From the NCBI GenBank assembly GCA_014803525.1, contig JAAVBP010000026.1, positions 1 to 37,845 on the forward strand: DNA of 37,845 nucleotides, written 5' to 3'. The position numbers were made by a program, and so were the translations under genes. The DNA comes from a bacterium (GTDB lineage: Bacteria > Pseudomonadota > Alphaproteobacteria > Rs-D84). Numbering within the stretch: position 1 is the first letter of the stretch; each line of letters begins with the position of its first letter. The notes under the pieces are model-generated. The model had not been told where the DNA came from and made no database searches. It was given only the letters and a program-made list of their open reading frames with translations. Shown here in pieces: positions 24,737-37,845 of this stretch.

Positions 24737-25374
24737 TATTTCACAAGTTTAAATTCGTAAGCGAAAACATAGGGATTGGATTTCCATGTGCCTTTGCCGG
24801 ATACTTTATCAATGAGAGATGCAAAGGCATCGCGGGGCGTAAAAAACCATTGTGGAGCATTCGGATATGTGTATATGAACGCTTGTGGATTCATAGGATC
24901 TTCATCCATATAGATACCCTCCTTGATGCAATCATCATCGGAAATATCCTGCAACCGCTCTACACGGACGTTGGTAATGCGTATTCGGTTGGGCATTAGG
25001 TCGGCACGGACACACATCTTGTTATTCCAACCATTTGTTTGTTCCGCAGGAAAGTCATAGCATCCGAACTCTTCATCCTCGCAAGGTATGGAATGAACAT
25101 CTGCATTCTTATAACTTTGCGCTATCGCTACGATTTCGCCAACCTTGTATTTAGGGAGAATATAACCTCCGTCTATAGTTGATTCATCGGCATCAAAAAG
25201 ACTCGGCCACTCAAGCATAGCACCATCGGACTGACGTTTGTAGACGTGGAATCCTGCAACCCATTCGCCTTTGAATGTTTTAGGGCAATCTATTATTCGT
25301 CTTGTCATTGTCTTGCGCCCATCCAGTACGGCTTGGGTGAGTCCGTATCGGTCGTTAAACATTATTTTTTTCAT
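24736..25374 (-). CDS. ASCH/PUA-like domain phage protein
   Basis: 212 residues. The start MKKIMFNDRYGLTQAVLDGR, followed by KTMTRRIIDCP, is the hallmark of phage ASCH-domain proteins. Further matches are YKVGEIVAIAQSY, NRIRITNVRVERLQDISDDD and WFFTPRDAFASLIDKVSGKG, typical of the same family. ASCH folds bind RNA or modified nucleotides; the phage role is not established. The 17 nt around its start codon (25371-25387) are repeated exactly upstream of the gene starting at 26104. Confidence 0.82.
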   Translation of the reverse strand: MKKIMFNDRYGLTQAVLDGRKTMTRRIIDCPKTFKGEWVAGFHVYKRQSDGAMLEWPSLFDADESTIDGGYILPKYKVGEIVAIAQSYKNADVHSIPCEDEEFGCYDFPAEQTNGWNNKMCVRADLMPNRIRITNVRVERLQDISDDDCIKEGIYMDEDPMNPQAFIYTYPNAPQWFFTPRDAFASLIDKVSGKGTWKSNPYVFAYEFKLVK

Positions 25375-25385
25375 TCGCTTTCGGT

Positions 25386-25847
25386 TTAAAATTCAAATTC
25401 AAGTTGCACAACCGGCTCCTTGTATTCAAGATGTGATGAAAGGTAACTCTCACGGAGTTTCTTCCTGATCGTCTCCCTTTCATCCTCCGATACATTGTTT
25501 TTATCCGATTCAAAGTTACACCTCAATACGAGTTCAAGGCTTCCCTGAAAATGCTTCTCTTCTAAGAAAAGGGAGTACTCGGTGAAACTCCTGGCATGTC
25601 CCTCGGCATCCATCTTCTCTTCTTCAGTCTGATCACGAACATACACGACATTCATCATCCTATTGATGAATTTCATCGTCCTTTCTTCCGGTTGACTGTC
25701 GTTCTCGAAGATTACGGAAATAGCCTCTTTCTTCCGGATCTTGTTGACCTTACACCATCCGTAAAAAACGCGTAGACGCTTGGAGGTCGGTTTGCGCTTG
25801 TGTTTGGCGTCAAGAGCGGAGAGCCGGTTCTGGAGTATCGGATTCAT
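25386..25847 (-). CDS. Hypothetical early protein
   Basis: 153 residues. The N-terminus is strongly basic (LDAKHKRKPTSKRLRVFYGW) and suggests nucleic-acid contact; the C-terminal half is acidic and helical (SEDERETIRKKLRESYLSSH) and ends VVQLEFEF. No family recognised. It starts by ATGA overlap with the gene upstream and stops 11 nt before the ASCH start. Confidence 0.6.
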   Translation of the reverse strand: MNPILQNRLSALDAKHKRKPTSKRLRVFYGWCKVNKIRKKEAISVIFENDSQPEERTMKFINRMMNVVYVRDQTEEEKMDAEGHARSFTEYSLFLEEKHFQGSLELVLRCNFESDKNNVSEDERETIRKKLRESYLSSHLEYKEPVVQLEFEF

Positions 25848-26104
25848 AGGCTTTCATATTCAAGCAAGAGGTTAAACTCATCATCTCCATTCTCGTCTCC
25901 ATAGATGCGTTCACGGGTGACATAAACAAGAGGAAGGACATAACGCCACTGCCCCTTATCTTCGTCCCATGCATCATCGGAAACCTTGTCAACGACAAGG
26001 TAAACCGGGGTGTCGTTGGGGATATTACGGATCTTCTTTTTCAGTTCTCCTGCTGTTATTGGAGTGGCATGAAGAATGTAGTTGGGGACTTCGTTAATAT
26101 TCAT
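25844..26104 (-). CDS. Hypothetical early protein
   Basis: 86 residues, acidic. The segment ITAGELKKKIRNIPNDTPVY, then LVVDKV and WRYVLPLVYVTRE, resembles small single-domain phage proteins in which a helix is followed by a beta hairpin (the order seen in 'ELxxxLxxxPDDTPV' families). The start is coupled by ATGA to the DUF551-like remnant, and its stop overlaps the next gene. Function unknown. Confidence 0.6.
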   Translation of the reverse strand: MNINEVPNYILHATPITAGELKKKIRNIPNDTPVYLVVDKVSDDAWDEDKGQWRYVLPLVYVTRERIYGDENGDDEFNLLLEYESL

Positions 26105-26211
26105 TCGCTTTCGGTTTTAGGGGGTTCGGGTATCGGCATCCAGTGGGTCACTTCATCGCCAACCTCATATTGGTAAACTATTATTATATGCTTTAAACTT
26201 GATTCTAATAC
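26101..26211 (-). pseudogene. DUF551-like C-terminal remnant
   Basis: The frame continues after the TGA of the 53-residue gene for 36 codons. It ends YEVGDEVTHWMPIPEPPKTE, then SE. The VTHWMPxPEPP motif is the C-terminal signature of DUF551 proteins, but the rest of that ~70-residue domain and any start codon are missing. Its stop overlaps the start of the next gene (ATGA). It is probably the 3' end left after gene replacement. Confidence 0.65.
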
Positions 26212-26373
26212 TCATCTTTTCTTACTTTTAAGTTGCTGCAATTCTTGTTTCTTTTGTTCGAGGTGCTGAGAAATATAGTCGGTGAAATATAATATATCTT
26301 CATTTGAGAGTATCATCTCATCTTCGGCTATCTCCCTTTTCAGCCTTTTCCTGGTCTTGCGGATGGAGGGCAT
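26212..26373 (-). CDS. Small helical hypothetical protein
   Basis: 53 residues (MPSIRKTRKRLKREIAEDEM, then a helix ending QELQQLKSKKR). The start is basic and the rest is an amphipathic helix or coiled coil. It fits exactly between its neighbours, 3 nt downstream of the membrane-protein gene. Function unknown. Confidence 0.5.
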   Translation of the reverse strand: MPSIRKTRKRLKREIAEDEMILSNEDILYFTDYISQHLEQKKQELQQLKSKKR

Positions 26374-26376
26374 AGG

Positions 26377-26619
26377 CTAAACCTTTTTTAAGACTATCTT
26401 TTCAACTATCCATGCGAGAAAATCCCACGCTTTCCAAAAGATAACGAACCATACCACATAGATGAAAATATCCTTATCTATACCTACCCATTTGCCGATG
26501 TAGACAAGCAACAATATTACTCCTAATGTTAAAGCGGAGGCTATGATGAGGAATATTGTAGCCAATACTACAAATAGCAATAACTCGCCTATCAATCTCA
26601 GTATTTTTCTCATAATCAC
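26377..26619 (-). CDS. Small membrane protein
   Basis: 80 residues with two or three hydrophobic segments (IGELLLFVVLATIFLIIASA, LTLGVILLLVYIG, IFIYVVWFVIFWKAWDFLAW). The C-terminus is basic (VEKIVLKKV). Not an obvious holin by position. It is probably an inner-membrane protein of the early operon, possibly acting on the host; the function is unknown. Confidence 0.6.
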   Translation of the reverse strand: MIMRKILRLIGELLLFVVLATIFLIIASALTLGVILLLVYIGKWVGIDKDIFIYVVWFVIFWKAWDFLAWIVEKIVLKKV

Positions 26620-26640
26620 TTCTTGTTAAAGTCCATTATG

Positions 26641-26988
26641 TCATATCTCATTCTTTTTGGGAAGTCTTTTACTGAACCTCCACCGTAGTTCGCTATCGCT
26701 CATTATCGATTCTCTGATGTCGTTAGAGTTTTTTGCAAATTCCACGAATATAGCAGTAATACATCCGGCTCGCTTATCGTCTTTACTGCCAGGGATAGCG
26801 TAAAACATAAAATTGCCAAGTGAGCCGTAAATGAAGCCATCTGCTTTCGTTGCTTCATGGTAGATAGGGTTGTCAATTTTTTCGATGTTCCTAAGTTCCT
26901 CTCTTGTGAATTTCCCGACAATCGGATATGCGAAGTGTCCGGACTTTCCTCTTGTCCCGAAGTAGCAAATTCTGTTTTCTTTTGTCAT
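26641..26988 (-). CDS. Hypothetical early protein
   Basis: 115 residues. The segment ICYFGTRGKSGHFAYPIVGK, then FTREELRNIEKID, and later SLGNFMFYAIPGSKDDKRAG look like a compact alpha/beta domain. The start overlaps the YopX gene stop by ATGA. The surrounding genes are small accessory early genes. No family recognised. Confidence 0.58.
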   Translation of the reverse strand: MTKENRICYFGTRGKSGHFAYPIVGKFTREELRNIEKIDNPIYHEATKADGFIYGSLGNFMFYAIPGSKDDKRAGCITAIFVEFAKNSNDIRESIMSDSELRWRFSKRLPKKNEI

Positions 26989-27386
26989 ATCTCTGTCGGT
27001 TGGTTATTCATTAGATCGGGATTATCGAAAATGGTGCCGACCACCTCAAATACTTCACTGGAGAAGTTACCCATCGGAATCAGGTAGTTTATATTTTTAA
27101 GGAGACAAAAATCACCATTCTCAAAAACCACAGGCGCGATAAGGTCATAGTGAAGGCCGGGATTTACGAAATGCACCATATCATCTTCGCATATCTCCTG
27201 ACCGTTCTTATCCTTAATTCCGGTGTACATACCTATTGTGGAATGGTCGAAAATGTCAGTCTCGATAACCTCTGAGTCCTTGCGCACCCATAATATTTGA
27301 GGCGACTCCACTCCATTGAAGCATAGATCACCGGTTGCCCACTCTCCATCAGTGGTTTTTGCTCTTAGTTTAATTGGTCGTATCAT
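26985..27386 (-). CDS. YopX family protein
   Basis: 133 residues from the ATG at 27386 (MIRPIKLRAKTTDGEWATGD). The longer frame above would extend far into the neighbouring ASCH-like gene. The central STIGMYTGIKDKNGQEICED, then DMVHF, and the closing VFEVVGTIFDNPDLM are the defining segments of YopX proteins (PF09643), common and of unknown function in phages of Firmicutes and Bacteroidetes. It overlaps the 3' end of the upstream gene by 17 nt and the next by ATGA. Confidence 0.9.
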   Translation of the reverse strand: MIRPIKLRAKTTDGEWATGDLCFNGVESPQILWVRKDSEVIETDIFDHSTIGMYTGIKDKNGQEICEDDMVHFVNPGLHYDLIAPVVFENGDFCLLKNINYLIPMGNFSSEVFEVVGTIFDNPDLMNNQPTEI

Positions 27387-27822
27387 ATATGCGGTTCCCA
27401 AGTTTAATGATGAATACTTTTCTGTCCTCCGGAGCGTTCCATTTAGTTTTGCCATAACCTATAGATATACTTTCAATCTCAAACATCATGTCTGGATCTT
27501 CACCTACACACTGATAGTGAAATTTCACATGAGTGTAGCCATTGACTATTTTTGTGAAATCTGAAAGATTGCCACATACGCACCCGCCGCTGTCCCCGTT
27601 ATAGCATAATTCCCGACCGGTCACAAGGTTGTCATAGCAATATCTGAATCCACGAGATGACTTATTATCTCTAATCACACCTTTACTGCACCATTTTACG
27701 CATTTCATAATTCGCTCAACCCAATAGGGGGTCAACTCACGGTAGGTTTCCAACCATATTCCCAATGCAATCATTTCAAACGCTTTGGGAGTCAGGGAGA
27801 GGTTTAATACCTTTCTTTTCAT
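27370..27822 (-). CDS. ASCH-like protein (second ASCH-type gene)
   Basis: 150 residues. The start MKRKVLNLSLTPKAFEMIAL, the block TYRELTPYWVERI, and the end SISIGYGKTKWNAPEDRKVF, then IIKLG, match a family of ASCH/PUA-like proteins common in Bacteroidales phages, where the pattern is EYRELKPYW followed much later by GIGKPEWGAP and FxIKLG. In between is a Cys-rich insertion (LCYNGDSGGCVCGN) that is unusual. It may bind nucleotides or RNA. It is distinct from the ASCH gene at 24736. Confidence 0.68.
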   Translation of the reverse strand: MKRKVLNLSLTPKAFEMIALGIWLETYRELTPYWVERIMKCVKWCSKGVIRDNKSSRGFRYCYDNLVTGRELCYNGDSGGCVCGNLSDFTKIVNGYTHVKFHYQCVGEDPDMMFEIESISIGYGKTKWNAPEDRKVFIIKLGNRIYDTTN

Positions 27823-28133
27823 ATTCCCTTCATTGTTCCTTCGTAAAACTTCATTTCTTCGATGCAGTCAATGCAGACTTTCTGTCTGTCCTCGGTATAG
27901 ATAAGCTCGTCTGACTTTTCTCCGCACCATTCACATTGGGCGGGGATGAGATCGAAGGGGACTTGTTCGCGCAGGTTGGTGATCCGGCCTGCGCGTTGCA
28001 GGATGCGGAGGGTGATGGCACGGCGGTGCTCTTTGCGTGAGGAGTGGCCTCCGGTGGGATGGTTACCGTATTTATTTGCCCTTTTCTTTGCTACGGAGGG
28101 GGTGGAGGTGGAATTGAGTCGGATTGGTTTCAT
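27819..28133 (-). CDS. Small zinc-ribbon-type protein
   Basis: 104 residues. The N-terminus is basic (SVAKKRANKYGNHPTGGHSS). The C-terminal half has CEWCGEKSDELIYTEDRQKV followed by CIDCIEEM, a CxxC-x(17)-CxxC zinc ribbon. A DNA- or RNA-binding accessory role is likely. It is coupled to both neighbours by ATGA overlaps. The exact family is not recognised. Confidence 0.65.
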   Translation of the reverse strand: MKPIRLNSTSTPSVAKKRANKYGNHPTGGHSSRKEHRRAITLRILQRAGRITNLREQVPFDLIPAQCEWCGEKSDELIYTEDRQKVCIDCIEEMKFYEGTMKGI

Positions 28134-29170
28134 TTCTCTGTGTTTGAATATGTGGGTGGTGTGTCGATTGTGTATGAGCCTATGGGGAGAGAGCCGGATT
28201 GGTCGGACGGTTGGTTTGCCGGATCGTCGTAGTAGGAATAAGCGAGAGAGAATTCAAGTGGGATGTAGTGTCGGATGGGTACGACTTTGGATTCCTCAAC
28301 CTGTGAGAAGAATGTTTTCTCCTCAATGGTGGCTTCTGGATCCTTTGCGAGTTTTTTACGATTTTCATGAAGCAACCGTAGGCGGAGCCAGAAGAGGATG
28401 ATGCGGTTGGCTCGTGCGCAGGAGGATGTGCGGATGAGGAATGTCTGGTCTCTTTCTATTTTATCATCTTTACTCGGGGTGGAGGTGATAGTGGTTATGT
28501 GTGCGGTGATCTGGTAGAAACGATGGTTTTTTGTTTCGTCTTCTTCTCCTTCTTTATTTTCTTCGAAACATTTTCCTTTCACACAATGGGCTGAACCTGT
28601 TGATGCGTAATCAAAGAGAAGTGTTCCATCATCTTCATCGGTATCATAAGGAGGGTAGATATCTTCAGCTTCATCTTCGGGGAGGATATAACCGGGATCT
28701 GTAAGGATGGTTATGTAGTCGGTTGCCCGGATTTCAGTTATGGCGAAGTTCCCTTCAAAGTTAAGCTCAATATAGTCGGCCAGTATGAGTAGGGCTGTGC
28801 GTAGGGATTTGGCGTAAAATATGAATGTATGTGGCTTATGATTTATGATAGCCTTTGCCCGGAAAGGGAAGTGGGAATAGGAAGTTGATTCTTTTGCCTG
28901 TCGGCATTGGTTTGAGATTCGGATCCGGCGGATCTCTCCTGCCGCGAGGCTGAACCGGATTGATTCGAGAGTGTTCTGATCAATCAGGGTGCCGCGGTCG
29001 AAGAGTCGTTCGGAGCGTTCGATTTCGGTTGTTTCACCGGTTTCTTTGTTGATGAATGTCTGGGTATATGTTTTGATGACGGGTTCGGCTATGTATTTAT
29101 TTAGCATTGCTGCCGGGTCGGAGGTGTAGAAGGAGATCTCTGATCGGCGGGTGGGGACGTTCGTTTTCAT
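28130..29170 (-). CDS. DUF4494-like repeat protein
   Basis: 346 residues. Two segments have the same pattern: FPFRAKAIINHKPHTFIFYA, then SLRTALLILADYIEL (about 100-160), and RFYQITAHITT, then DQTFLIRTSSCARANRIILF (about 215-265). Each is a strand, an exposed hairpin, a strand, then a helix, as in DUF4494-type phage proteins. A highly acidic stretch (PEDEAEDIYPPYDTDEDDG) separates them. The start ATG at 29170 is one base from the upstream stop. Probable role unknown. Confidence 0.6.
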   Translation of the reverse strand: MKTNVPTRRSEISFYTSDPAAMLNKYIAEPVIKTYTQTFINKETGETTEIERSERLFDRGTLIDQNTLESIRFSLAAGEIRRIRISNQCRQAKESTSYSHFPFRAKAIINHKPHTFIFYAKSLRTALLILADYIELNFEGNFAITEIRATDYITILTDPGYILPEDEAEDIYPPYDTDEDDGTLLFDYASTGSAHCVKGKCFEENKEGEEDETKNHRFYQITAHITTITSTPSKDDKIERDQTFLIRTSSCARANRIILFWLRLRLLHENRKKLAKDPEATIEEKTFFSQVEESKVVPIRHYIPLEFSLAYSYYDDPANQPSDQSGSLPIGSYTIDTPPTYSNTEK

Positions 29171-29171
29171 A

Positions 29172-29669
29172 TTATTTGCTGTTATCGGTTTTCGGGGTGT
29201 TATTTTTGGATTGCTTTATTCTTCCGGGGAGGCATCTGATTGGTTCGCCTGAGAGTATTGTTGTTTTGGGACGCGGGTTGTAGGCAGGGTCTCCTTTGGG
29301 GAAGAGGAAGCGGTTGATGTTATAGGTTATGGCGGAGTGGATTGCATATGAGAGGGCAATCTTTTTCTGCTGCCGGGGTATGGGGCAGTCGTGTCCGCTC
29401 CATGAGTAGATTACGGGGCGTCCGTAGCTGTCGGGCATGGGGAAGCGTTCGGCGAGTTCTGGGGCTATGTATCGGCGCATGCGGTGGAGGTGTGGCCGGA
29501 GGAATGTGCCGTTGTTGGGTGTGCAGAGACTAGTGTTCTGCATTGATGGGTCGCCGCGGAGGAATTGATGAACGTCCGACAGGGAGTCGCGTATGAGCTG
29601 CAGTTGCTCTTCGGAGCATTCAATGAGCCAGCGGCGTGCGGGGTTGGGGGAGATTTCTTTTTTATCCAT
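29172..29669 (-). CDS. Conserved Bacteroidales phage hypothetical
   Basis: 165 residues. RRWLIECSEEQLQLIRDSLS, then DVHQFLRGD and a later SWSGHDCPIPRQQKKIALSY, then AIHSAITYNI, form a pattern I recognise from early genes of Bacteroidales phages (EEQL-x-LI ... SRFLAG ... SYGWSGxGCPN). The C-terminus is long and basic. It starts inside the upstream gene by 8 nt overlap. Function unknown. Confidence 0.65.
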   Translation of the reverse strand: MDKKEISPNPARRWLIECSEEQLQLIRDSLSDVHQFLRGDPSMQNTSLCTPNNGTFLRPHLHRMRRYIAPELAERFPMPDSYGRPVIYSWSGHDCPIPRQQKKIALSYAIHSAITYNINRFLFPKGDPAYNPRPKTTILSGEPIRCLPGRIKQSKNNTPKTDNSK

Positions 29670-29892
29670 GTTGGTTTATTCTTATTATGCGTCCTTGACG
29701 GAATGCGTTGCTTCTTTCGATGCTCCGGATTACGATGGGGCGCGTGGTGGTGAAGCGGGCGGGTTGTCCGCATGTGAGGTTTCCTCCACGGAAAGGGATG
29801 CGGATCAGCTGGCGTCGGGAGGGTGTCTCGGCTATGAAGGTTGTTTCTTCGTGGCCGGGGTAGAGGTAGGTTACGGGGGCGGTTGTTTCCAT
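29662..29892 (-). CDS. Small beta-rich hypothetical protein
   Basis: 76 residues from the ATG at 29892 (METTAPVTYLYPGHEETTFI). The longer frame would start inside the tRNA-like gene and is rejected. It contains beta-rich and basic segments (SRRQLIRIPFRGGNLTCGQP) with no known motif. It is the first gene of the leftward block below the tRNA. Confidence 0.5.
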   Translation of the reverse strand: METTAPVTYLYPGHEETTFIAETPSRRQLIRIPFRGGNLTCGQPARFTTTRPIVIRSIERSNAFRQGRIIRINQHG

Positions 29893-29917
29893 ATGTTTTT
29901 TGAGTGTTGTGCTTTGT

Positions 29918-29994
29918 TGCCGGAGAGGGGGTCGAACCCTCACCGTGCCGGAGTTTCTCAGGCTCCGGGTGCTCTACCATTGAGCTATCCGGCA
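29918..29994 (-). tRNA. tRNA-like gene, anticodon uncertain (GAG?)
   Basis: A 77-nt cloverleaf: acceptor TGCCGGA/TCCGGCA (7 pairs), D arm GCTC-AATGGTA-GAGC, T arm GAGGG-TTCGACC-CCCTC. The anticodon arm is CCGGAG...CTCCGG, six pairs, but encloses a 9-nt loop CCTGAGAAA instead of 7 nt. If the central T-GAG-A is read as positions 33-37, the anticodon is GAG (Leu), but a class II long variable arm is absent, so leucine identity is doubtful. CCA is not encoded. The sequence is well preserved in its invariant positions, which argues for a gene under selection or a recent acquisition. Confidence 0.75.
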
Positions 29995-30256
29995 GTTTTC
30001 GGCCTTGCTCCCTTCGCAGGGATTGGGGCCTTGGATTTCAAATCATCGAATGTATACGGCCTTGCTTTCCTCACGGATTCCGGGGCCTTACGCTTTATGC
30101 TTAACAAGATAGTATTTTCAGAATCTTACCTACATAAAGGATTACTACATTAGACCGGCGGCTCTCTCTCGTGCTCTCCCCCCGGAGGGGTGTTGGCCGG
30201 CAGAACAAAATCTAAGTCATGTTTTTATCATAAAGGAATCGCTTGTGAGCTCCGGA
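29995..30256. other. Structured non-coding region beside the tRNA
   Basis: No gene seen. Two related 35-nt units (29999-30033 and 30055-30092) share GGCCTTGCT ... GGGGCCTT, each with its own small internal hairpin (CCCT-TCGC-AGGG and TCC-TCAC-GGA). At 30155-30196 there is a G+C-rich inverted repeat (CCGGC...GCCGG outside, CCCC-CCGGA-GGGG inside). On the minus strand it is the leader between the membrane-protein gene above and the tRNA. Confidence 0.5.
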
Positions 30257-30574
30257 TTATGCCGGGCGTGCGGCCTCACGGCTTGTGACCGGTCCGGTAG
30301 CCTTGAATATTGTTTTATTTTTCTTTTGGGAGAGGCTGTTTTGCTGTGAGCCTTTCATGCTCCAGTTTTCGTATCGGAGAATCCAGGGATCGTTTTTCCA
30401 GTTGGAATAGAGGCGTCCGAGTGCGAAGAAGAGGAAGGCCCCTGTTGCTTTGGATAGTATCATGCTGCGGCACCATTGGCTGAGGGGAGCGTTATTGACG
30501 GGTTGGCAGAATGTGAGGTAGATTGCGGCCATTGCGAGGCTCATCAGGATTGCTATTTTGAGAATTGATTTCAT
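30257..30574 (-). CDS. Small membrane protein
   Basis: 105 residues with an N-terminal membrane segment (ILKIAILMSLAMAAIYLTFC) and a second hydrophobic part (LSKATGAFLFFALGRLYSNW). The C-terminus is polar. It is in the leftward early block after the HTH gene. Possibly a host-membrane-acting protein; no family recognised. Confidence 0.58.
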   Translation of the reverse strand: MKSILKIAILMSLAMAAIYLTFCQPVNNAPLSQWCRSMILSKATGAFLFFALGRLYSNWKNDPWILRYENWSMKGSQQNSLSQKKNKTIFKATGPVTSREAARPA

Positions 30575-30599
30575 TGTTTATGTTTTTTTTGGATGGTTA

Positions 30600-30803
30600 T
30601 CATGCGTTGCTTCTCCTTTCCGGTTTTGCGGGATTATTCTGCAGGCATGCTATTGCTTTGTCGAGATCGTATATTATGACGCGACCGCGTTCGGCTATCG
30701 TTGCTTGGCGGAGGATCCCTTTTTTACGCCATTTTTGTACTGTCTGGTGATGTACTCCAAGGGTTTGCGCGAGTGCTTTATTACCTTTTATTATTGTTTT
30801 CAT
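30600..30803 (-). CDS. DUF3853-type helix-turn-helix protein
   Basis: 67 residues from the ATG at 30803 (MKTIIKGNKALAQTLGVHHQ). The winged-helix segment GNKALAQTLGVHHQTVQKWR followed by KKGILRQATIAERGRVIIYD is a MerR/excisionase-like fold of the DUF3853 kind. Such proteins act as small DNA-binding regulators or excisionases. Its position in the early block near the repressor would fit a Cro- or Xis-like role; this is inference. The longer upstream frame overlaps the 46-residue gene and is not used. Confidence 0.75.
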   Translation of the reverse strand: MKTIIKGNKALAQTLGVHHQTVQKWRKKGILRQATIAERGRVIIYDLDKAIACLQNNPAKPERRSNA

Positions 30804-30814
30804 TTGCGTATGTA

Positions 30815-30955
30815 TTATTGGTGGATATTGCATTTCGGGGATGAGTAGTACTCTACATATCTGTTGATGATCCGGCAGAAGAGTCCGTTGAGGGATTGGT
30901 GGGAGTGTGTGCATTTAGAGCATTGTCCCGATGGAGTTACAGCGGATTCTTTCAT
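30815..30955 (-). CDS. Very small Cys-rich protein
   Basis: 46 residues (MKESAVTPSGQCSKCTHSHQ, then SLNGLFCRIINRYVEYYSSP, KCNIHQ). CSKC followed by a later C and C gives a CxxC ... C ... C zinc-finger-like spacing. It fits between its neighbours with no overlap and has a good start. Probably a small regulator. Confidence 0.5.
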   Translation of the reverse strand: MKESAVTPSGQCSKCTHSHQSLNGLFCRIINRYVEYYSSPKCNIHQ

Positions 30956-30974
30956 GAGATTTCATTTTGGGTGG

Positions 30975-31133
30975 TCATTGGCGTGTGAGAATGGTTATTC
31001 CGGTGCCGATGATGAAAATTGCGGTGAAGAATATTCCTGCGATGATGTCGCACGCGAATGCGATTGAGAGCAGGGTGAGGAAACCGATGAGGAGGCATAG
31101 GTATCCGATGAATGATATGGTGGATGGTTTCAT
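30975..31133 (-). CDS. Very small membrane protein
   Basis: 52 residues with two membrane segments (FIGYLCLLIGFLTLLSIAFA and IIAGIFFTAIFIIGTGITIL). It lies 6 nt below the leftmost-promoter gene's stop and is consistent with a small host-acting membrane protein. No family recognised. Confidence 0.55.
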   Translation of the reverse strand: MKPSTISFIGYLCLLIGFLTLLSIAFACDIIAGIFFTAIFIIGTGITILTRQ

Positions 31134-31139
31134 TTTGGA

Positions 31140-31340
31140 TCAGGCGATTCGGGTGACAGTTATAGTGCCCTTTTCTCGGTCTATTTTTGTTGTCAATGAT
31201 TTTTGGTTGCGAATTGCATTTATGTTGCTTGTCGCGGTGCGTATAGAGAACACTGATTCTATGGGAAAGGCTGCGCTCTCCTCAATTTCAAGGGATTTGA
31301 TTCTGGCAAGTGCAGAAATTTTATGGGCGTTATTTTTCAT
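31140..31340 (-). CDS. First gene of the leftward early operon, hypothetical
   Basis: 66 residues (MKNNAHKISALARIKSLEIE). The protein is small, ends with KIDREKGTITVTRIA and has the build of a small DNA-binding or antirepressor-type protein (helix, then beta). It lies 31 nt downstream of the presumed leftward promoter, where a Cro-like or early regulator is expected. No family recognised. Confidence 0.55.
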   Translation of the reverse strand: MKNNAHKISALARIKSLEIEESAAFPIESVFSIRTATSNINAIRNQKSLTTKIDREKGTITVTRIA

Positions 31341-31371
31341 AATTTGTTAGTTATTTATTAACTTAGTGATG

Positions 31372-31434
31372 CAAAGGTAATGTAAATTTTCGTACTAAAA
31401 TATATTTTCGTGTTAATAAAAGTTAAATACGAAA
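31372..31434. promoter_or_regulatory. Lysogeny switch: early promoter and three operator-like sites
   Basis: A -7 box TACCTTTG (minus strand, 31372-31379) matches TAnnTTTG. Three related sites lie next to it: TTTTCGTACTAA (31387-31398), TTTTCGTGTTAA (31405-31416) and, inverted, TTAAATACGAAA (31423-31434). The second and third form an imperfect inverted repeat. They sit between the diverging first early gene and the repressor gene, where repressor binding would switch the leftward operon. Confidence 0.6.
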
Positions 31435-31472
31435 TTATTTTTTCATTAAACTATTATAAGATATTGATAGCA

Positions 31473-31907
31473 ATGAATTTACAACTTATAAAAACTCTTG
31501 TTGAAAAAGAACGATATCCAGGAGGTGTAAAAGGCCTTGCTGAAGCGGTAGGTATGACTGAACAGAATCTGCATAGATGTGTACGTGAAAATAAGATTCA
31601 AGCTCAGGATTTAGAAAAGATTTCTATCGAACTCGAAATATCTATTTCTGAGTTCTTTAAAGAACGTGATTCCAAAATGGAAAGACTTAATTCTAAAATC
31701 GTTGCTGAGAAATCCAAGATTTTAAATGCAAACCAGATTAATGAGTTGGGTTCACATGATAATATCAATAGTATTGGGGACAGTGTCCTTCACGAACGTC
31801 TCAAGTCTAAAGACAAAGAAATAGAGAACAAAGATAGACTCATTGCTGAAAAGGATGCACGCATAGAGGAATTGAAGGATATGATAAACGAATTGAAGAA
31901 AAGATGA
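31473..31907 (+). CDS. Repressor-like HTH protein
   Basis: 144 residues from the ATG at 31473 (MNLQLIKTLVEKERYPGGVK). The longer frame from 31410 would translate the operator region. Residues 10-55 form a helix-turn-helix (GLAEAVGMTEQNLHRCVREN, KIQAQDLEKISIELEISISE), of the CI/XRE type. The remaining part is a charged coiled coil (KSKDKEIENKDRLIAEKDAR). There is no protease-like domain, so induction may not follow the RecA/LexA-type autocleavage route. It is probably the lysogeny repressor: divergent from the early block with operator-like repeats between them. The 160 nt after its stop show no gene. Confidence 0.78.
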   Translation: MNLQLIKTLVEKERYPGGVKGLAEAVGMTEQNLHRCVRENKIQAQDLEKISIELEISISEFFKERDSKMERLNSKIVAEKSKILNANQINELGSHDNINSIGDSVLHERLKSKDKEIENKDRLIAEKDARIEELKDMINELKKR

Positions 31908-32069
31908 AAGGAAATCTGATATGTGCTTGTAATGAAGATATAATTAATATATACAGTGTTTTAGAGTACATAGTGAATTATATATGATAAATAAGGCTTA
32001 TTAGGCCGAGATAGAAGAATTGAAAATTATAAATATACGAGAATTATAGCTGTAAAAAGGGGTTCTGAT

Positions 32070-33626
32070 ATGAAAGATATAAAATATTGGCATATCATTC
32101 GTAAAAGCCTATTTTATGCAGGTGCTTTTATTGTGCTTTTCTCTCCTTTTCATCTTTTAGTTGGTTACCTGCTATACGATCATATCAATGAACCTTGGAG
32201 ATTGCCATTGTTAATTATTATATGTTTGATCGTTTTGTTTATATCTTTTCTTTATGTATATGATAACTTATTAAGGAAAATTAGGGCAGAGAGTTTAAGT
32301 AGAATTTATGAATTGGAATATAGATATCCCGATAAAATATATGCAAAGGAGAAAGAATTGGCAGAATTGGAAAAGGCATTGGATAAAAAAAGAAATACCT
32401 TATATCACCTGGAAAAAAGATTAGATCAAAGGGAATATGATCTGATAAGAGAGAAGGATGAACTTAGATATAAAGAATCAAGATATAAAGAAGATTTAAA
32501 ATCTGAAAAGATAAAAGAGGTAGGAGAAATTAAGGAAGAGTATTATGAGAAAATAAATATTTTTAAGAATGCATGTAAGAAAAGAATAGAGGCAATCGAA
32601 AAGAAAAAAGAGGAGGCTGAATGGGAAAGAGATTCAATTGAAGCCTTCGTTGAGGACAGAGAACCTTTCGTTTCCTGTGCAGCTTATATATGCGATAGAA
32701 AAATTAGATTTCTTGAAGAATATGAGAATTTTCTAAGGAAGAAGAAGATACCGGCGGTTAAAGCTGCTGAACGGGTGACGGTGATTAAAAGGATGATTAA
32801 GGAAGAACTGGAGCAGGCAAAGGTTATTGAATACCGGATGTCTTATTTGATTAATAAATTTCCTGAGTTAGCCATGCTCCTTGAATCTGATGAGCAACTT
32901 CTTACTCTGAAGGACAGGAATGTTGGCGAATACAAGGCAAACTACGATTATACGCGTGATTACCTGAGCAAGGAGGAATGGGATAGATTATCTACAGCTG
33001 AACGGAATCAACTTGCTCTGGATCGCTATGTTTATCATCGTAAAAAAGATATCTTGTGGGTTGGTAGAGATTATGAGATGGCTTGTGGGCATATGTTGAC
33101 AAAAAGAGGGTATGAGGTGGAGTATCATGGAATAAAGAAGGGTTTTGCGGATTTGGGACGTGATCTTATAGCTCGAAGAAAGCGTCATCTTTTCTATGAT
33201 GAGCTGGAGAATGGGGAGGAGATCTTGATTATTCAGTGTAAGTACTGGTCGTCTCAACGTACCATAAGGGAGAATGTGGTGATGCAGCTTTTCGGTTCTT
33301 ATGTGTGTTTTCTGAATGAGAATAATTTTTCACGCAGGGTCAAGCACGTGAAGCCCGTACTTATGATACCGTCTATGTCGGTTCTTTCGGAAGAGGCATC
33401 TAAGTTCATTGAACTTCTGGAGATCCAGCTTGTCAGGTTTTCTGACATGCATTTCCCCCGGATTAAGTGTAACATAAATAACGGTGAGAAGATTTATCAT
33501 TTGCCTTTCGACCAGCAGTATGACAGGGCGGAGATAAAGAATGTCGGAGAGTTTTATGCTTATACTGTTGAGGAGGCTGAAAGAGCCGGTTTCCGGAGAG
33601 CTAAAAGGCATGTTATGAATGCGTAG
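32070..33626 (+). CDS. Membrane-anchored coiled-coil Mrr-type nuclease
   Basis: 518 residues in three parts. Residues 13-65 hold two membrane helices (FYAGAFIVLFSPFHLLVGYL, LPLLIIICLIVLFISFLYVY). Residues 75-210 are a long charged coiled coil (EKELAELEKALDKKRN, and so on). The C-terminal ~190 residues are a PD-(D/E)XK restriction-like domain of the Mrr kind: YEMACGHMLTKRGYEVEYHG, GFADLGRDLIARR with the acidic residues, IIQCKYW with the Q-x-K motif (about residues 386-392) and a later Gln (VVMQLFG). Codon use is A+T-rich at the front and changes near the nuclease part. It is separated from the repressor by 160 nt and is not coupled to any virion gene. A host- or prophage-protecting DNA-cutting function is a strong possibility; cutting of incoming phage DNA at the membrane is inference. 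Confidence 0.8.
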   Translation: MKDIKYWHIIRKSLFYAGAFIVLFSPFHLLVGYLLYDHINEPWRLPLLIIICLIVLFISFLYVYDNLLRKIRAESLSRIYELEYRYPDKIYAKEKELAELEKALDKKRNTLYHLEKRLDQREYDLIREKDELRYKESRYKEDLKSEKIKEVGEIKEEYYEKINIFKNACKKRIEAIEKKKEEAEWERDSIEAFVEDREPFVSCAAYICDRKIRFLEEYENFLRKKKIPAVKAAERVTVIKRMIKEELEQAKVIEYRMSYLINKFPELAMLLESDEQLLTLKDRNVGEYKANYDYTRDYLSKEEWDRLSTAERNQLALDRYVYHRKKDILWVGRDYEMACGHMLTKRGYEVEYHGIKKGFADLGRDLIARRKRHLFYDELENGEEILIIQCKYWSSQRTIRENVVMQLFGSYVCFLNENNFSRRVKHVKPVLMIPSMSVLSEEASKFIELLEIQLVRFSDMHFPRIKCNINNGEKIYHLPFDQQYDRAEIKNVGEFYAYTVEEAERAGFRRAKRHVMNA

Positions 33627-33770
33627 TCTTTGGTATAATGACCAGCTGATGTCCAAAGGGAAGGGGTATGGGTATTAATTTTTATATAATGACTTGAATC
33701 ATTCTTCGATGTTCCTCCAATAATATAGTTTCAACTGTTCTGTATTAGCTTGGGAATGTAGCCGCATGTT

Positions 33771-33802
33771 TTTGTATAAAATTAGCTGAACCAATAATTT
33801 CT
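33771..33802 (+). promoter_or_regulatory. Weak candidate promoter for the secreted-protein genes
   Basis: TTTG at 33771-33774, 20 nt spacer, then TAATTTCT at 33795-33802, a partial match to TAnnTTTG. It lies 23 nt before the next gene in an A+T-rich 198-nt gap that otherwise shows nothing. Confidence 0.3.
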
Positions 33803-33824
33803 TAACTTTAAATTATTAGGAAAT

Positions 33825-34835
33825 ATGAAACGATTGATAGGACTAATTATGATGATTGCCATATCTTTAAATGGATATGCGGAGTGGTTGTTTGTTTTTG
33901 AAGGTGATGAGGGATCATGGTACATTAACTCTGAAATCGAGGATGGATGGAATTATGGCGAGCATATTATAAGGGATTTGTTTGTTTATAATGAATTGCG
34001 TACTACATCCGATGGAATAAAGTATAAGGAATCAGAATTTTGCTCTTTAGTAGATAAGGATTGTGAGCGTCTCGGAACAATTTTACATAAGAATTATGAC
34101 GAGGAAGGAAGAGTTGTCCGTATTTATAAAAATGACAGTCCGAAGTTGGAATATCAAGATCCGGATAAAACTTGGACTGGTTGGTTTATGTCACTTGTGA
34201 GAACAGCTTTAAAGAAAGGAAGAAAGCAATTAAGGCAAAGTGATGTTGAATCAATGATTTCTTCTGATGAAACGGACGATACATATATAGAAAACCCACG
34301 TGGAGCTGATGAATATTCTTCAATTTCAGTATCTGATGATAGTTATTATATTGCGGAAGTTATAGCCAATAAGTTAACGGTGAGGAATGGTCCCGGTGCT
34401 AATTATGCAGCAGACGGAAGTTTAAGCAAAGGGAGAGAAGTAGTTGTTTCCGGTTCGGATCTTCTCTCCGAGAATTTTTGCCTTATGATGACTCTTGATG
34501 GGAAATATTATGGATATGTTGCAAAGAAATACCTTAAGGTGGTAGCTGAACTTACGGAGAACGTTGGAAATGTTCTTGAGGAGGCCGGCACACTTACAGA
34601 TATGCGAAATGAGTGTGAGATCAAGATAAGGAATGATGTCAGTAAGGAGATTACGGTACAGATTAATGGTAAGCCATATCATATTGCTTCAGGAAAGACA
34701 ATTACTGCAAAGGGAATCGCTCCGGGTAAAGTTCGGATGATTGCTACGGCTGCAGGTTTTAAGCCTTATTATGCCACTGATACGGTAAAGGGTGGTTACA
34801 TTTATGATTGGGTGTTCTATGAAGTAAGGAAATAG
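33825..34835 (+). CDS. Secreted SH3-domain/surface-adhesin E-like protein
   Basis: 336 residues with a signal peptide (MKRLIGLIMMIAISLNGYA). The N-terminal part (20-110; SWYINSEIEDGWNYGEHIIR, then DCERLGTILHKNYDEEGR) resembles surface-adhesin E-like domains (PF16747). Residues about 175-240 are a bacterial SH3 domain (AEVIANKLTVRNGPGANYAA, then YYGYVAKKYLKVV). The end (about 262-336; CEIKIRNDVSKEITVQINGK, then PGKVRMIATAAGFKPYY) is a PEGA-like beta domain. Domain order and signal peptide place it in the periplasm or on the surface. It looks like lysogenic-conversion cargo and may bind cell-wall or host surface components; the target is unknown. Confidence 0.68.
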   Translation: MKRLIGLIMMIAISLNGYAEWLFVFEGDEGSWYINSEIEDGWNYGEHIIRDLFVYNELRTTSDGIKYKESEFCSLVDKDCERLGTILHKNYDEEGRVVRIYKNDSPKLEYQDPDKTWTGWFMSLVRTALKKGRKQLRQSDVESMISSDETDDTYIENPRGADEYSSISVSDDSYYIAEVIANKLTVRNGPGANYAADGSLSKGREVVVSGSDLLSENFCLMMTLDGKYYGYVAKKYLKVVAELTENVGNVLEEAGTLTDMRNECEIKIRNDVSKEITVQINGKPYHIASGKTITAKGIAPGKVRMIATAAGFKPYYATDTVKGGYIYDWVFYEVRK

Positions 34836-34889
34836 GTAAAAGGATGGCTGACAATTTAATTATTGATTGTTGCCAATGTAGATGGAAAT

Positions 34890-35165
34890 ATGAGTGAGAT
34901 GAGTATTGGTTACAATGGGGTGTATGATGAGGATGAGTTTGCGGGATTAAGGATATCGGACAGGGTAAGGGATTATATGGATATGAGATTTGGCGCGGAG
35001 GAATATGAGAGGGCTCTGGAACGAGCCGGTTATGATCTCCTTGCTTTGATTGTTGAGATCAAAAGAGAGCGTCCGGGAGATTTTTACAGGTTTTTCCATG
35101 ACCTGCTTCATGAGAGAGAAATCGAGAGGTTCAGAAGAGAATATAATGACATGTTGCGCTTATGA
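34890..35165 (+). CDS. Small helical hypothetical protein
   Basis: 91 residues from the ATG at 34890 (MSEMSIGYNGVYDEDEFAGL); a TTG at 34863 is a weaker start. It is helical and charged (RDYMDMRFGAEEYERALERA, ERPGDFYRFFHDLLHERE). Its stop overlaps the next start by ATGA. It lies between two secreted-protein genes but has no signal itself, so it may act in the cytoplasm, for instance as an immunity or regulatory partner. Unrecognised. Confidence 0.55.
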   Translation: MSEMSIGYNGVYDEDEFAGLRISDRVRDYMDMRFGAEEYERALERAGYDLLALIVEIKRERPGDFYRFFHDLLHEREIERFRREYNDMLRL

Positions 35166-35419
35166 AAAGATTTATTTGTATACTGATCACCGTTGTGATC
35201 GCTCTGTCGGGGTCTATGGCCGACGGAAAGAGAAAGGGAAAGAAGCAGTCGGGCGAAGGTAAGCCGACAACAGGGTACGTGTATATATGCACCGGTCCGA
35301 AGGCCTCTACATATCACCGCACCCCGAATTGCTCGGGTCTCAACCGGTGCAGCACGAGTGTGAAGAAGGTTTCCGGATCATCGGTAAGCGGGCGAAGGCC
35401 GTGCCGCAAGTGTTATTGA
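35162..35419 (+). CDS. Secreted small Cys-rich protein
   Basis: 85 residues with a signal peptide (FICILITVVIALSGSMADG). The mature part contains VYICTGPKASTYHRTPNCSG, LNRCSTSVKKVSGSS and RRPCRKCY. The four conserved Cys (CxxL-N/S-x-C ... CRKC) and YHxTxNC form a small domain I know from secreted proteins and competence-like factors of Bacteroidetes; the metal or disulfide chemistry is not established. It is coupled by ATGA to the preceding gene and ends 24 nt before the integrase. It may be exported as a surface or effector protein. Confidence 0.65.
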   Translation: MKRFICILITVVIALSGSMADGKRKGKKQSGEGKPTTGYVYICTGPKASTYHRTPNCSGLNRCSTSVKKVSGSSVSGRRPCRKCY

Positions 35420-35442
35420 CAGACTGTTTTTAGATTGATGCT

Positions 35443-36753
35443 ATGACTCCGATAAAGCGAAAGTTGTTGTATATTTTCAGAGGAACTCTTCTCAGGCTTC
35501 GTGTGACTTGGAATCATGGAGAGTCTGTGACTTTTTCCATCGGGTATCATGTGGACCGTGAGGATAAACAGGGAAAACCCAAATGGGATGGTCAGCGTTG
35601 CCGTCCCAATACAACCCATGGAGAGGATAAAGTGACGGCCTCCACAATAAACAAGGTATTGGAAAAACTTGAGAACGAGATTGATGAGGCTTTTCTAAAG
35701 TTTGAGAAGCTTGATGCCATGCCATCTAAAAATCAGCTCAAATATGAAATTACTGGTGAGAAAAAGATATCAAAAAAGGAATTCTTTGATATTTTTGATG
35801 AATTCATGACGGAGGGCCAGACTATTGATCAGTGGTCGGTCAGCACGCAGAGAAAGATGAAGACCATGAAAAAACTTCTGTTGATGTTTGATCCAAGACT
35901 TGATTTCAAGGATATATCCACGGGATTGATAAACCGTTTCATGGCTTTTCAGACACACAATTCAGTTGGCGGAAAGAGTAAAAAGGAAGAGGAAGATGGA
36001 AAGGTACTTGTAAAATACAAGGGACGTTACCAGAATGACACGATCAACAGAAACATTAAGAACCTCAAGTGGTTCATGCAGTGGGCATACCAGAAAGGAT
36101 ATCACAATAATACTGCGTTCCGTGAGCATAAGACAAAATATAAGACACCGAAGCATCAAGTTGTGTTTCTCTCATGGGATGAGCTTATGAGGGTGCTCCG
36201 GTTGGATCTCAGTGGTCGTCCGGAGCTTGATTGCACGCGCGATATGTTCTGTTTTTGCTGTTTCACCTCTCTTAGGTATTCCGATCTTGTCAATCTGCGT
36301 TGGGATGATATTGGAACGGATTCCATAAGGGTGACAACAATAAAGACTGCCGATACTATCATAATCGACCTCAATGATTATTCCCGGGAGATTCTTGCCA
36401 AGTATTCGCGAGGAGAGCATAAGCCTGGTGAAATGGTATTCCCGGCTAAGAGCTCTCAAAAAATGAATTTGCGTTTAAAAGAGATTGGTAGGCTCTGTGG
36501 GATTGACCGTCCGGTGCATATCGTTCAAATGTATGGTTCGCAGAGAAAGGATATGAGTGTTCCCAAATATGAATTGTTGAGTACTCATTGCGGACGACGC
36601 ACTTTTATCTGTAATGCACTTGCCATGGGTGTTCCTCCGAATGTAGTGATGAAATGGACGGGGCATAGTGACTATAAAGCGATGGAACCATATATCGAAA
36701 TTGCAGATGAAGTAAGGAAGCGGTCAATGTCTGTATTCAATCGAAAGGAATGA
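35443..36753 (+). CDS. int: Tyrosine integrase
   Basis: 436 residues. The N-terminal arm and SAM-like core-binding domain (about 110-225) are followed by the catalytic domain. The active-site residues are visible: SLRYSDLVNLRW (Arg I), a Lys in the following strand (TIKTADT), STHCGRRTFI (His-x-x-Arg), and WTGHSDYKAMEPYIEI with the His and the nucleophilic Tyr. All are present, so the enzyme should be active. It integrates and excises the prophage; the att region is expected next to its 3' end. The arrangement is typical of Bacteroidales prophages and integrative elements. Confidence 0.93.
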   Translation: MTPIKRKLLYIFRGTLLRLRVTWNHGESVTFSIGYHVDREDKQGKPKWDGQRCRPNTTHGEDKVTASTINKVLEKLENEIDEAFLKFEKLDAMPSKNQLKYEITGEKKISKKEFFDIFDEFMTEGQTIDQWSVSTQRKMKTMKKLLLMFDPRLDFKDISTGLINRFMAFQTHNSVGGKSKKEEEDGKVLVKYKGRYQNDTINRNIKNLKWFMQWAYQKGYHNNTAFREHKTKYKTPKHQVVFLSWDELMRVLRLDLSGRPELDCTRDMFCFCCFTSLRYSDLVNLRWDDIGTDSIRVTTIKTADTIIIDLNDYSREILAKYSRGEHKPGEMVFPAKSSQKMNLRLKEIGRLCGIDRPVHIVQMYGSQRKDMSVPKYELLSTHCGRRTFICNALAMGVPPNVVMKWTGHSDYKAMEPYIEIADEVRKRSMSVFNRKE

Positions 36754-36901
36754 TCGCATTATAAATCTGTTACATCTCCGAGGAGTTTTATTTTGAGTGA
36801 GTAAAAAGTTTCGGTCAAATCAGAAGAGATTTATGACTTTGTAAAACAGTTCCGCTTTTAGTTCCGTTTGAAATATTTATTGTTTAATTATTTGATTATA
36901 A
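36754..36901. other. Presumed att region after the integrase
   Basis: 148 nt without a gene, A+T-rich, between integrase and the 5'-less polyvalent gene. It contains the direct repeat AGTTCCG at 36848-36854 and 36860-36866 and several A/T tracts (TATTTATTGTTTAATTATTT). The crossover core cannot be fixed from one sequence. Confidence 0.4.
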
Positions 36902-37845
36902 ATATATTATAAAGCAAATTTTCAATCCCCTCCAGAGGTTGGTGAGGTAGAGATAAACCGTAATTCGGTCGAGAGTTCTCTTGCACATAGATACGGACAA
37001 GCAAAACTTGACGCGATAACCTCTCTTGTCGATGGGTTTGAGAATGCTGTTTATCTCGGAACGATGCCTGATTTTACACGGCAGGAAGGCGTAAACAATC
37101 ATTTCTTTGCTTATCCTATAATGTATGATGGGAAACGTTGTTATGTTTTCTGCCGGGCAATGCAGGATGCCAATAAGAACCGGTTGTATGTGCACGAAGT
37201 GTTTGTAGGGGATAACATAAGAAAAGGGGACACCCTTCAAACCGCAGCGTCTCAGCCTCACGGAGGTATCGCCCTTTACAGGGATATTCTTGCGAATGTT
37301 TTAGAAACAGTAGCCAAGACCGAACTTCAGCAACCGAAGCAAGCCGTTTCAGGTGACTCTTCGCTTTCAGCAGCTGAGCAAAGCGGCACATCATCTGCTG
37401 AACCCAACGGTAAGTCAACCGTTTCCGATAGCAAAGTTAACACTTTATTATCAGAAAAACAAGAGATTGAGGGGGAAAGTTCGGAAAACGGGGATGGAAG
37501 CAGAGCTTCCGGTGGTAACAGCTCCGCGATAGCAGGAAAGATAGCAGAAGCGGAGGCGGATGTGAACCAGTCACCGACGGATGCACAGAAAGAGGCGGGG
37601 AACTACCGAAAGGGGCATGTCAGGATCGGAACGTTCGATATCACCATCGAGAATCCGAAAGGATCCGTGCGCAGGGGCACGGATGCAAAAGGGAAGCGAT
37701 GGGAGAGCACCATGAGCCATAGTTATGGTTATATCCGGGGCACGAGGGGCGTTGACGGCGACCATATTGATGTGTTCCTTTCCTCTGGGATAGAGGGATG
37801 GAAAGGGGAGAAGGTGTTTGTGGTTGACCAGTATAATCCAGACGG
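36902..37845 (+). CDS. Polyvalent protein fragment, LPD3 and inorganic pyrophosphatase-like domains (5' missing, 3' partial)
   Basis: An open frame (stop just before 36902) of 314 codons with no ATG before about 37067, running past the right edge. About residues 17-110 form an LPD3-like domain (INRNSVESSLAHRYGQAKLD, then AVYLGTMPDF, FFAYPIMYDGKRCYVFCRAM, RLYVHEVF). A low-complexity linker follows, with the family-1 repeat at 37497-37530 giving GSRASGGNSSA. From about residue 235 comes an InPase-type domain of polyvalent proteins (HVRIGTFDITIENPKGSVRR, MSHSYGYIRGTRGVDGDHID, VFVVDQYNPDG). The missing start suggests truncation, possibly at the att site. Fusion at the circular junction to the left-edge gene would make one giant polyvalent protein upstream of the portal, but the two edges are not in frame as given. 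Confidence 0.75.
   Translation, partial: MYYKANFQSPPEVGEVEINRNSVESSLAHRYGQAKLDAITSLVDGFENAVYLGTMPDFTRQEGVNNHFFAYPIMYDGKRCYVFCRAMQDANKNRLYVHEVFVGDNIRKGDTLQTAASQPHGGIALYRDILANVLETVAKTELQQPKQAVSGDSSLSAAEQSGTSSAEPNGKSTVSDSKVNTLLSEKQEIEGESSENGDGSRASGGNSSAIAGKIAEAEADVNQSPTDAQKEAGNYRKGHVRIGTFDITIENPKGSVRRGTDAKGKRWESTMSHSYGYIRGTRGVDGDHIDVFLSSGIEGWKGEKVFVVDQYNPD
37497..37530 (+). repeat. Dispersed repeat (family 1), second in-frame copy
   Basis: GGAAGCAGAGCTTCCGGTGG followed by TAACAGCTCCGCGAT. It is in the same reading frame as the copy at 208-243 and gives SRASGGNSSA. No hairpin core is present; this is the short form. Confidence 0.7.

Follow-up and report, generated by a model that had tools for sequence, protein, structure and literature searches.

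A nuclease gene in the lysogeny module of a temperate phage

The stretch of DNA analysed here (37,845 nucleotides, hereafter the window) belongs to a temperate phage, with genes for a portal, a replication initiator, an SU10-type capsid, a GH108 lysin and a holin. Its rightward module carries, in this order, a repressor, a nuclease, three small cargo genes and an integrase, and the prophage setting that the original prediction had assigned to the nuclease gene is borne out. The nuclease itself, a predicted membrane-anchored protein of 518 residues with an Mrr-type catalytic domain and a C-terminal "sunset" domain, is encoded from an ATG start on the + strand (32070..33626), as supported by the open reading frame list, by matches to PF04471 and NF051437 and by an AlphaFold model. 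Directly upstream lies an HTH repressor of 144 residues with a C-terminal coil (31473..31907, + strand), which scores 20.2 bits against HTH_26 (cut-off 22) and shares 25% identity (E 0.001) with the repressor of Bacteroides phage BS-TP4. Between the nuclease and the integrase, an SH3-like and apparently exported protein (33825..34835, + strand) shows a weak match to SH3_3 (E 0.007) and is taken as other cargo, with no demonstrated partnership with the nuclease; a further small exported protein (35162-35419) immediately precedes the integrase and ends in GRRPCRKC, weakly recalling the second half of the Ada zinc site. The tyrosine integrase (35443..36753, + strand; PF00589, PF13102, phrog_1) forms the downstream end of the lysogeny module. 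On the opposite side a divergent HTH protein (30600..30914, - strand; DUF3853 and several HTH families) starts the leftward module, and the phage also contains a tRNA-Leu (gag) gene (29916-29994, - strand), with the leftward genes on one side of it and the lysogeny module on the other.

A second contig of the same assembly, C27, is 99.98% identical to the window contig, C26, over window positions 24981-36935 and departs from it at 36935, after TTCAATCCCCTCCAG, where C27 continues into host-like genes and the window into phage DNA. We read this junction as the attachment site captured in its integrated and circular forms, with a probable 15-base core at 36921..36935 on the + strand (11941-11955 in L003) where the two contigs split. 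The presence of two nuclease copies in the genome was considered and rejected, the overlap of C27 and C26 being a single prophage assembled twice. The host side of the junction continues with CTCCACTTT, which resembles the 3' end of a tRNA or tmRNA gene and is likely the integration site. Just beyond the attachment site, positions 37064-37845 hold the start of a large polyvalent or DarB-like antirestriction protein, and the phage seems to carry such a protein and a restriction-type nuclease together.

The window portal is 64% identical to the portals of Bacteroides phages BS-TP4 and BKO1-TP3, so the host of the phage was most likely a gut member of the Bacteroidota. The 1.08 Mb genome that holds the contig is probably that of another bacterium, into which the contig would have been misbinned, since no real relatives were found among 398 sampled genomes of the phylum under which the contig is filed and the nearest relatives of the nuclease are in Bacteroidota.

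Domain organization of the nuclease

The AlphaFold model of the full-length protein has a mean pLDDT of 85.7, with the nuclease and sunset domains mostly above 90. Its N-terminus contains two predicted membrane helices, as originally proposed: the first at residues ~13-37 (32106..32180, + strand; hydropathy at most 1.91, AlphaFold helix 7-38) and the second at residues ~44-66 (32199..32267, + strand; hydropathy 3.06 at residue 45, AlphaFold helix 44-85), with 19-residue hydropathy peaks at residues 17-35 and 45-63. The K/R-rich flanks of the second helix predict a cytoplasmic location for the nuclease. Residues 87-194 (32328..32651, + strand) follow as a single modelled helix with a pLDDT of ~90 and 55% charged residues, which supports only in part the long coiled coil seen by the original prediction: one long charged helix is present and its heptad periodicity is locally significant (the best window, residues 74-115, was matched in 12 of 2000 shuffles), but periodicity over the entire charged stretch is not significant (p 0.61). 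Beyond this stalk, the family alignment delineates a conserved helical middle domain (residues 195-292; 32652..32945, + strand) and a conserved linker with an ERNQLALDRY motif (residues 293-330; 32946..33059, + strand).

The Mrr-type PD-(D/E)XK nuclease domain, defined by PF04471, a 66-sequence alignment and fold matches, occupies residues 331-460 (33060..33449, + strand). The Mrr_cat model PF04471 matches residues 332-410 at 23.3 bits, above its curated cut-off of 21; the GFADLGRD and QCKYW motifs are both present and the key residues E336, D365, Q389 and K391 are invariant in all 66 aligned sequences, in agreement with the complete Mrr-type core described previously. The sunset domain at the C-terminus (residues 461-513; 33450..33608, + strand) matches NF051437 at 32.8 bits (cut-off 27) over residues 465-512, and its region is also matched by phrog_21287, a family classed under moron and host takeover and described as membrane associated. 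This domain, the most conserved region of the protein, and the conserved middle domain had both been overlooked in the original prediction.

Fold comparisons

Sequence searches of the PDB returned no meaningful relatives. By structure (VIA-align), its closest match is AF1548 (Z 12.9, 140 residues, rmsd 4.1), with the match spanning residues 331-515 undivided by domain, followed by EndoMS (Z 11.1), FokI (Z 9.2), MspJI (Z 8.5; Foldseek E 2e-4) and AspBHI (Z 8.2); what is common to these five enzymes and the window protein is the PD-(D/E)XK core, aligned over 105-140 residues at Z 8.2-12.9. All five are soluble and carry specificity domains of other kinds, and to our knowledge none of them features the arrangement of membrane anchor, stalk and sunset domain.

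When modelled alone, the sunset domain reaches a Z of at least 2 with just two PDB entries, both of them N-Ada structures with low scores (Z 5.0 and 4.0). The better of the two, 1u8b, aligns over 48 residues with an rmsd of 2.7. For the N-Ada fold Foldseek gives an E of 1.1, and a profile comparison by hhalign with 20 Ada domains reaches 71% across 17 columns. The sunset sequence FYAxTVxEAExAGFRRA parallels Ada FxxxxxAExAGFRPCxRC, the likeness being weak and confined to this half of the domain. The four zinc cysteines of Ada (PF02805) are absent, with RRA standing where Ada has RPC, and in the window protein's sunset region C467 is the only cysteine; since these cysteines are not kept, Ada-type methyl transfer is unlikely. 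Taken together, sequence and model suggest that the sunset domain is probably a zinc-free relative of Ada and, as such, might contact DNA.

A widespread but sporadic family

A search seeded with an alignment of the window protein and three Hymenobacter plasmid proteins recovered 86 relatives, 17 from IMG/VR and 69 from GTDB loci, and as all have the same design, the organization of the window protein is not a chance one. Sixty-five of them were aligned with the window protein (n=66). Conservation rises steeply toward the C-terminus, the mean frequency of the top residue being 0.13 in the membrane part, 0.17 in the stalk, 0.36 in the middle domain, 0.53 in the nuclease and 0.70 in the sunset domain. 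Besides the four catalytic-core residues named above, G332, G354, D361, G363, W393 and E401 never vary in the nuclease domain, nor do K466, C467, H477, P479, Y484 and A503 in the sunset domain. PF04471 and PF13156 match 56 and 62 of the 66 members, respectively (E <= 0.1), and NF051437 matches 50 (E <= 1e-3).

A membrane helix is predicted within the first 110 residues in 58/66 members, compared with 31% of 529 neighbouring open reading frames, and beyond residue 110 in a single member. In all 51 members with a single helix the K/R count is higher after the helix than before it, with some bias to be allowed for as the preceding stretch is often short, and this asymmetry predicts a cytoplasmic nuclease in each of the 51. 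The Bacteroidota relatives nearest to the window protein (L016, L029, L030 and L031) have two or more helices. A multi-phylum clade (L055, L067, L074, L091, L093 and L095) keeps the nuclease and sunset domains and has no predicted membrane helix; with eight of the 66 members lacking a predicted helix, anchoring is, judged from these predictions, not essential to every member of the family.

The named hosts in the family tree represent ~19 phyla and are mostly metagenome-assembled genomes. Because a member was present in only 2/395 sampled Bacteroidota genomes, one of the two having been chosen for carrying it, the gene is accessory rather than housekeeping; its occurrence is sporadic and it has no fixed chromosomal partner, at odds with the exclusively housekeeping contexts that would have spoken against the original prediction. 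Annotated plasmid members are labelled "restriction endonuclease" only. Searches of annotated INPHARED phage records with the nuclease (tblastn) found no direct relatives, a near-identity search of phage records with the window DNA found no match, and IMG/VR scans with the integrase and the repressor as queries found no relatives.

A recurrent position between repressor and integrase

The original prediction had suggested looking for this architecture beside other prophage repressors, and here the result is clearly positive: among the 17 IMG/VR loci, whose contigs are viral by selection, an HTH repressor lies upstream on the same strand in 15, within 400 bp in 13 and often at 5-40 bp. An integrase or recombinase follows shortly downstream in 11/17, and a tyrosine integrase within 2.2 kb in 10/17, on the opposite strand in two. 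In L019 a serine recombinase begins 5 bp downstream of the nuclease, and in L026 and L027 the recombinase comes right after the nuclease on the opposite strand; the position thus persists despite a change of recombinase. Our in-house HTH search was seeded with the upstream genes themselves, and PHROGs therefore served as an independent check; repressors and integrases dominate the PHROGs matches of 125 neighbours, which supports the in-house result. The 69 genome loci were not chosen as viral and offer a fairer sample, in which an integrase is found directly downstream in six and a repressor within 400 bp upstream in eleven. On the family tree the prophage label changes 12 times, eight of these changes being forced by well-supported branches, against a shuffle mean of 22, and phages thus appear to have taken up the nuclease gene repeatedly.

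Phages BS-TP4 and BKO1-TP3 (~64-65 kb each) keep the order of repressor and integrase with unrelated cargo between them, a PsbP-like exported protein in the former and a lipoprotein-like protein in the latter. As these named relatives hold other genes in the gap, it is best read as a cargo slot. Apart from repressors and integrases, no recurring partner gene was found among the neighbours, and scans for promoters and terminators stayed at chance level. Clustering in defence islands, where the original prediction had also suggested looking, is not evident outside prophages, where reverse transcriptases occur three times and helicases twice among 142 neighbours.

Comparison with SNIPE and other known systems

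SNIPE, a GIY-YIG nuclease bound to the membrane, cleaves the DNA of phages as it is injected (PMC13190303, Nature 2026). Defence by E. coli SNIPE requires its catalytic residue and its DUF4041 domain, the protein is toxic without its membrane helix, and lambda DNA is cut while being injected and not afterwards; the SNIPE family, according to its authors, combines a variable N-terminus with a conserved nuclease (PMC13190303). The layout predicted for the Mrr-sunset family is the same, with an N-terminal membrane helix, a cytoplasmic helical stalk and middle domain and a C-terminal nuclease, and both families consist of a single gene scattered over many phyla with a fast-diverging N-terminus and a conserved nuclease. 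The parts differ, SNIPE being built from DUF4041 and GIY-YIG, whereas the family described here combines an Mrr-type PD-(D/E)XK nuclease with a sunset domain. The DUF4041 profile (PF13250) has no match in the window protein and is not one of the 25 families that occur most often across the 66 members, and hhalign of the whole family against seven DUF4041 proteins gave a probability of 13% over 14 columns, no detectable similarity; neither the middle domain nor the nuclease is related in sequence to its SNIPE counterpart. Membership in SNIPE was consequently rejected, there being no DUF4041 and no GIY-YIG, and the protein is a look-alike only; as DUF4041 is not detectable, no link to tape measure proteins may be assumed. 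By analogy of layout, the nuclease likely works as SNIPE does. The text of the SNIPE paper never mentions Mrr or restriction endonuclease (PMC13190303).

Precedents for the genomic arrangement are found in Gordonia phage CarolAnn, in which genes coexpressed with the repressor defend against unrelated phages (PMC6426606). CarolAnn gp43/44 and lambda RexAB are, as here, lysogeny-module cargo read together with the repressor (PMC6426606). They differ in being unrelated proteins whose presumed mechanism is membrane depolarisation. Against PADLOC-DB 2.0.0, the window protein has one match at E 0.4 and none at E <= 0.01, and no model matches more than one of the 66 members. In the PMC literature that could be searched, no description of a membrane-anchored Mrr-sunset nuclease was found, the "sunset domain" is not treated in any biological text, and no paper links Mrr to superinfection by prophages or, in the sense meant here, to SNIPE.

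A proposed model: cleavage of incoming DNA at the membrane

The reading that we favour, and hold to be rather probable from sequence and analogy, is that the protein is a lysogeny-module nuclease acting on incoming DNA at the membrane, with host and prophage spared by its tethering; as part of this reading, the gene is best explained as cargo of the lysogenic state in a temperate phage of Bacteroidota. The nuclease would be made together with the repressor during prophage dormancy, as suggested by the recurring order of repressor, nuclease and integrase and by the many loci in which it begins 5-40 bp after the repressor. Foreign DNA would then be cut at the inner membrane upon entry, and the host chromosome and resident prophage would be spared by an enzyme tethered away from the nucleoid. 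Stalk, Mrr-type domain and Ada-like sunset tail are all predicted to be cytoplasmic; the variable N-terminus may serve for docking at entry sites, and contacts with the arriving DNA or with the injection machinery may be made by the middle and sunset domains. Speaking for cutting at the membrane are the nuclease core invariant in 66/66 members, its restriction/repair nuclease fold, the anchor in 58/66 and the sporadic spread of the gene. Speaking against it are the 8/66 members without a helix, the lack of a strong defence-island signal outside prophages, and the fold shared with MspJI and AspBHI, which are modification-dependent and make DNA modification an alternative cue. On balance, the interpretation given with the original prediction finds partial support.

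That alternative, restriction of a Type IV-like kind in which a modified base or backbone is the cue, possibly recognised through the sunset or the middle domain, with the anchor of secondary importance, is the main rival because MspJI and AspBHI share the nuclease fold and because the related phages BS-TP4 and BKO1-TP3 encode DNA methyltransferases, though none was found within the 37.8 kb of the window, in agreement with the absence of an adjacent methylase noted in the original prediction. The resemblance of the sunset domain to N-Ada, a binder of methylated-backbone DNA, and the members without a predicted anchor fit it as well. We nevertheless consider it unlikely: most members do have a predicted anchor, neither SRA nor winged-helix domains nor any other known reader of modifications was detected, and N-Ada's zinc cysteines are lost. 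Less probable still is an abortive-infection nuclease, whose stalk or N-terminus would sense infection and unleash destruction of host and phage DNA alike. Such a sensor could lie in the long stalk and the variable N-terminus, and the signal-activated nucleases Can2 and Card1 have the same fold, but neither the chain nor a recurring neighbour provides a separate sensor, nucleotide-binding or ligand domain, and a membrane tether suits spatial control better than whole-cell cutting. Exclusion of close relatives only, or a lytic-stage role in host takeover, would suit the prophage location (exclusion) or the moron and host takeover class of phrog_21287; both are very improbable given that the gene is oriented like the lysogeny module and points away from the leftward early genes, and that the family occurs far outside phages. 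Finally, an accessory role in prophage integration, excision or replication, which the nearby integrase and the same nuclease fold in XisH-type excision factors (Z ~9.6) might suggest, is hardly credible, as many relatives lie on plasmids or at chromosomal positions near which no integrase was found, related phages of the same layout lack the nuclease, and a membrane anchor suits such a role poorly.

A broader form of the membrane-cutting reading is possible, and we advance it tentatively: the family may represent a second class of injection-site nuclease that was built independently, in which an anchored Mrr domain is joined to an Ada-derived, zinc-free, DNA-reading tail, which extends over ~19 phyla and has been captured repeatedly by temperate phages between repressor and integrase, and in which self and non-self would be told apart by place alone. 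Discrimination by place was demonstrated in 2026 for one membrane-bound nuclease, SNIPE (PMC13190303). The nuclease family is widespread, and no description of it was found in the searchable literature. If the proposal is true, an unrelated nuclease with the same layout would mean that discrimination by place has arisen repeatedly in evolution and that many prophages carry it, and the gap between repressor and integrase in prophages of Bacteroidota and Bacillota would be a place to look for defence cargo missed by defence-island searches.
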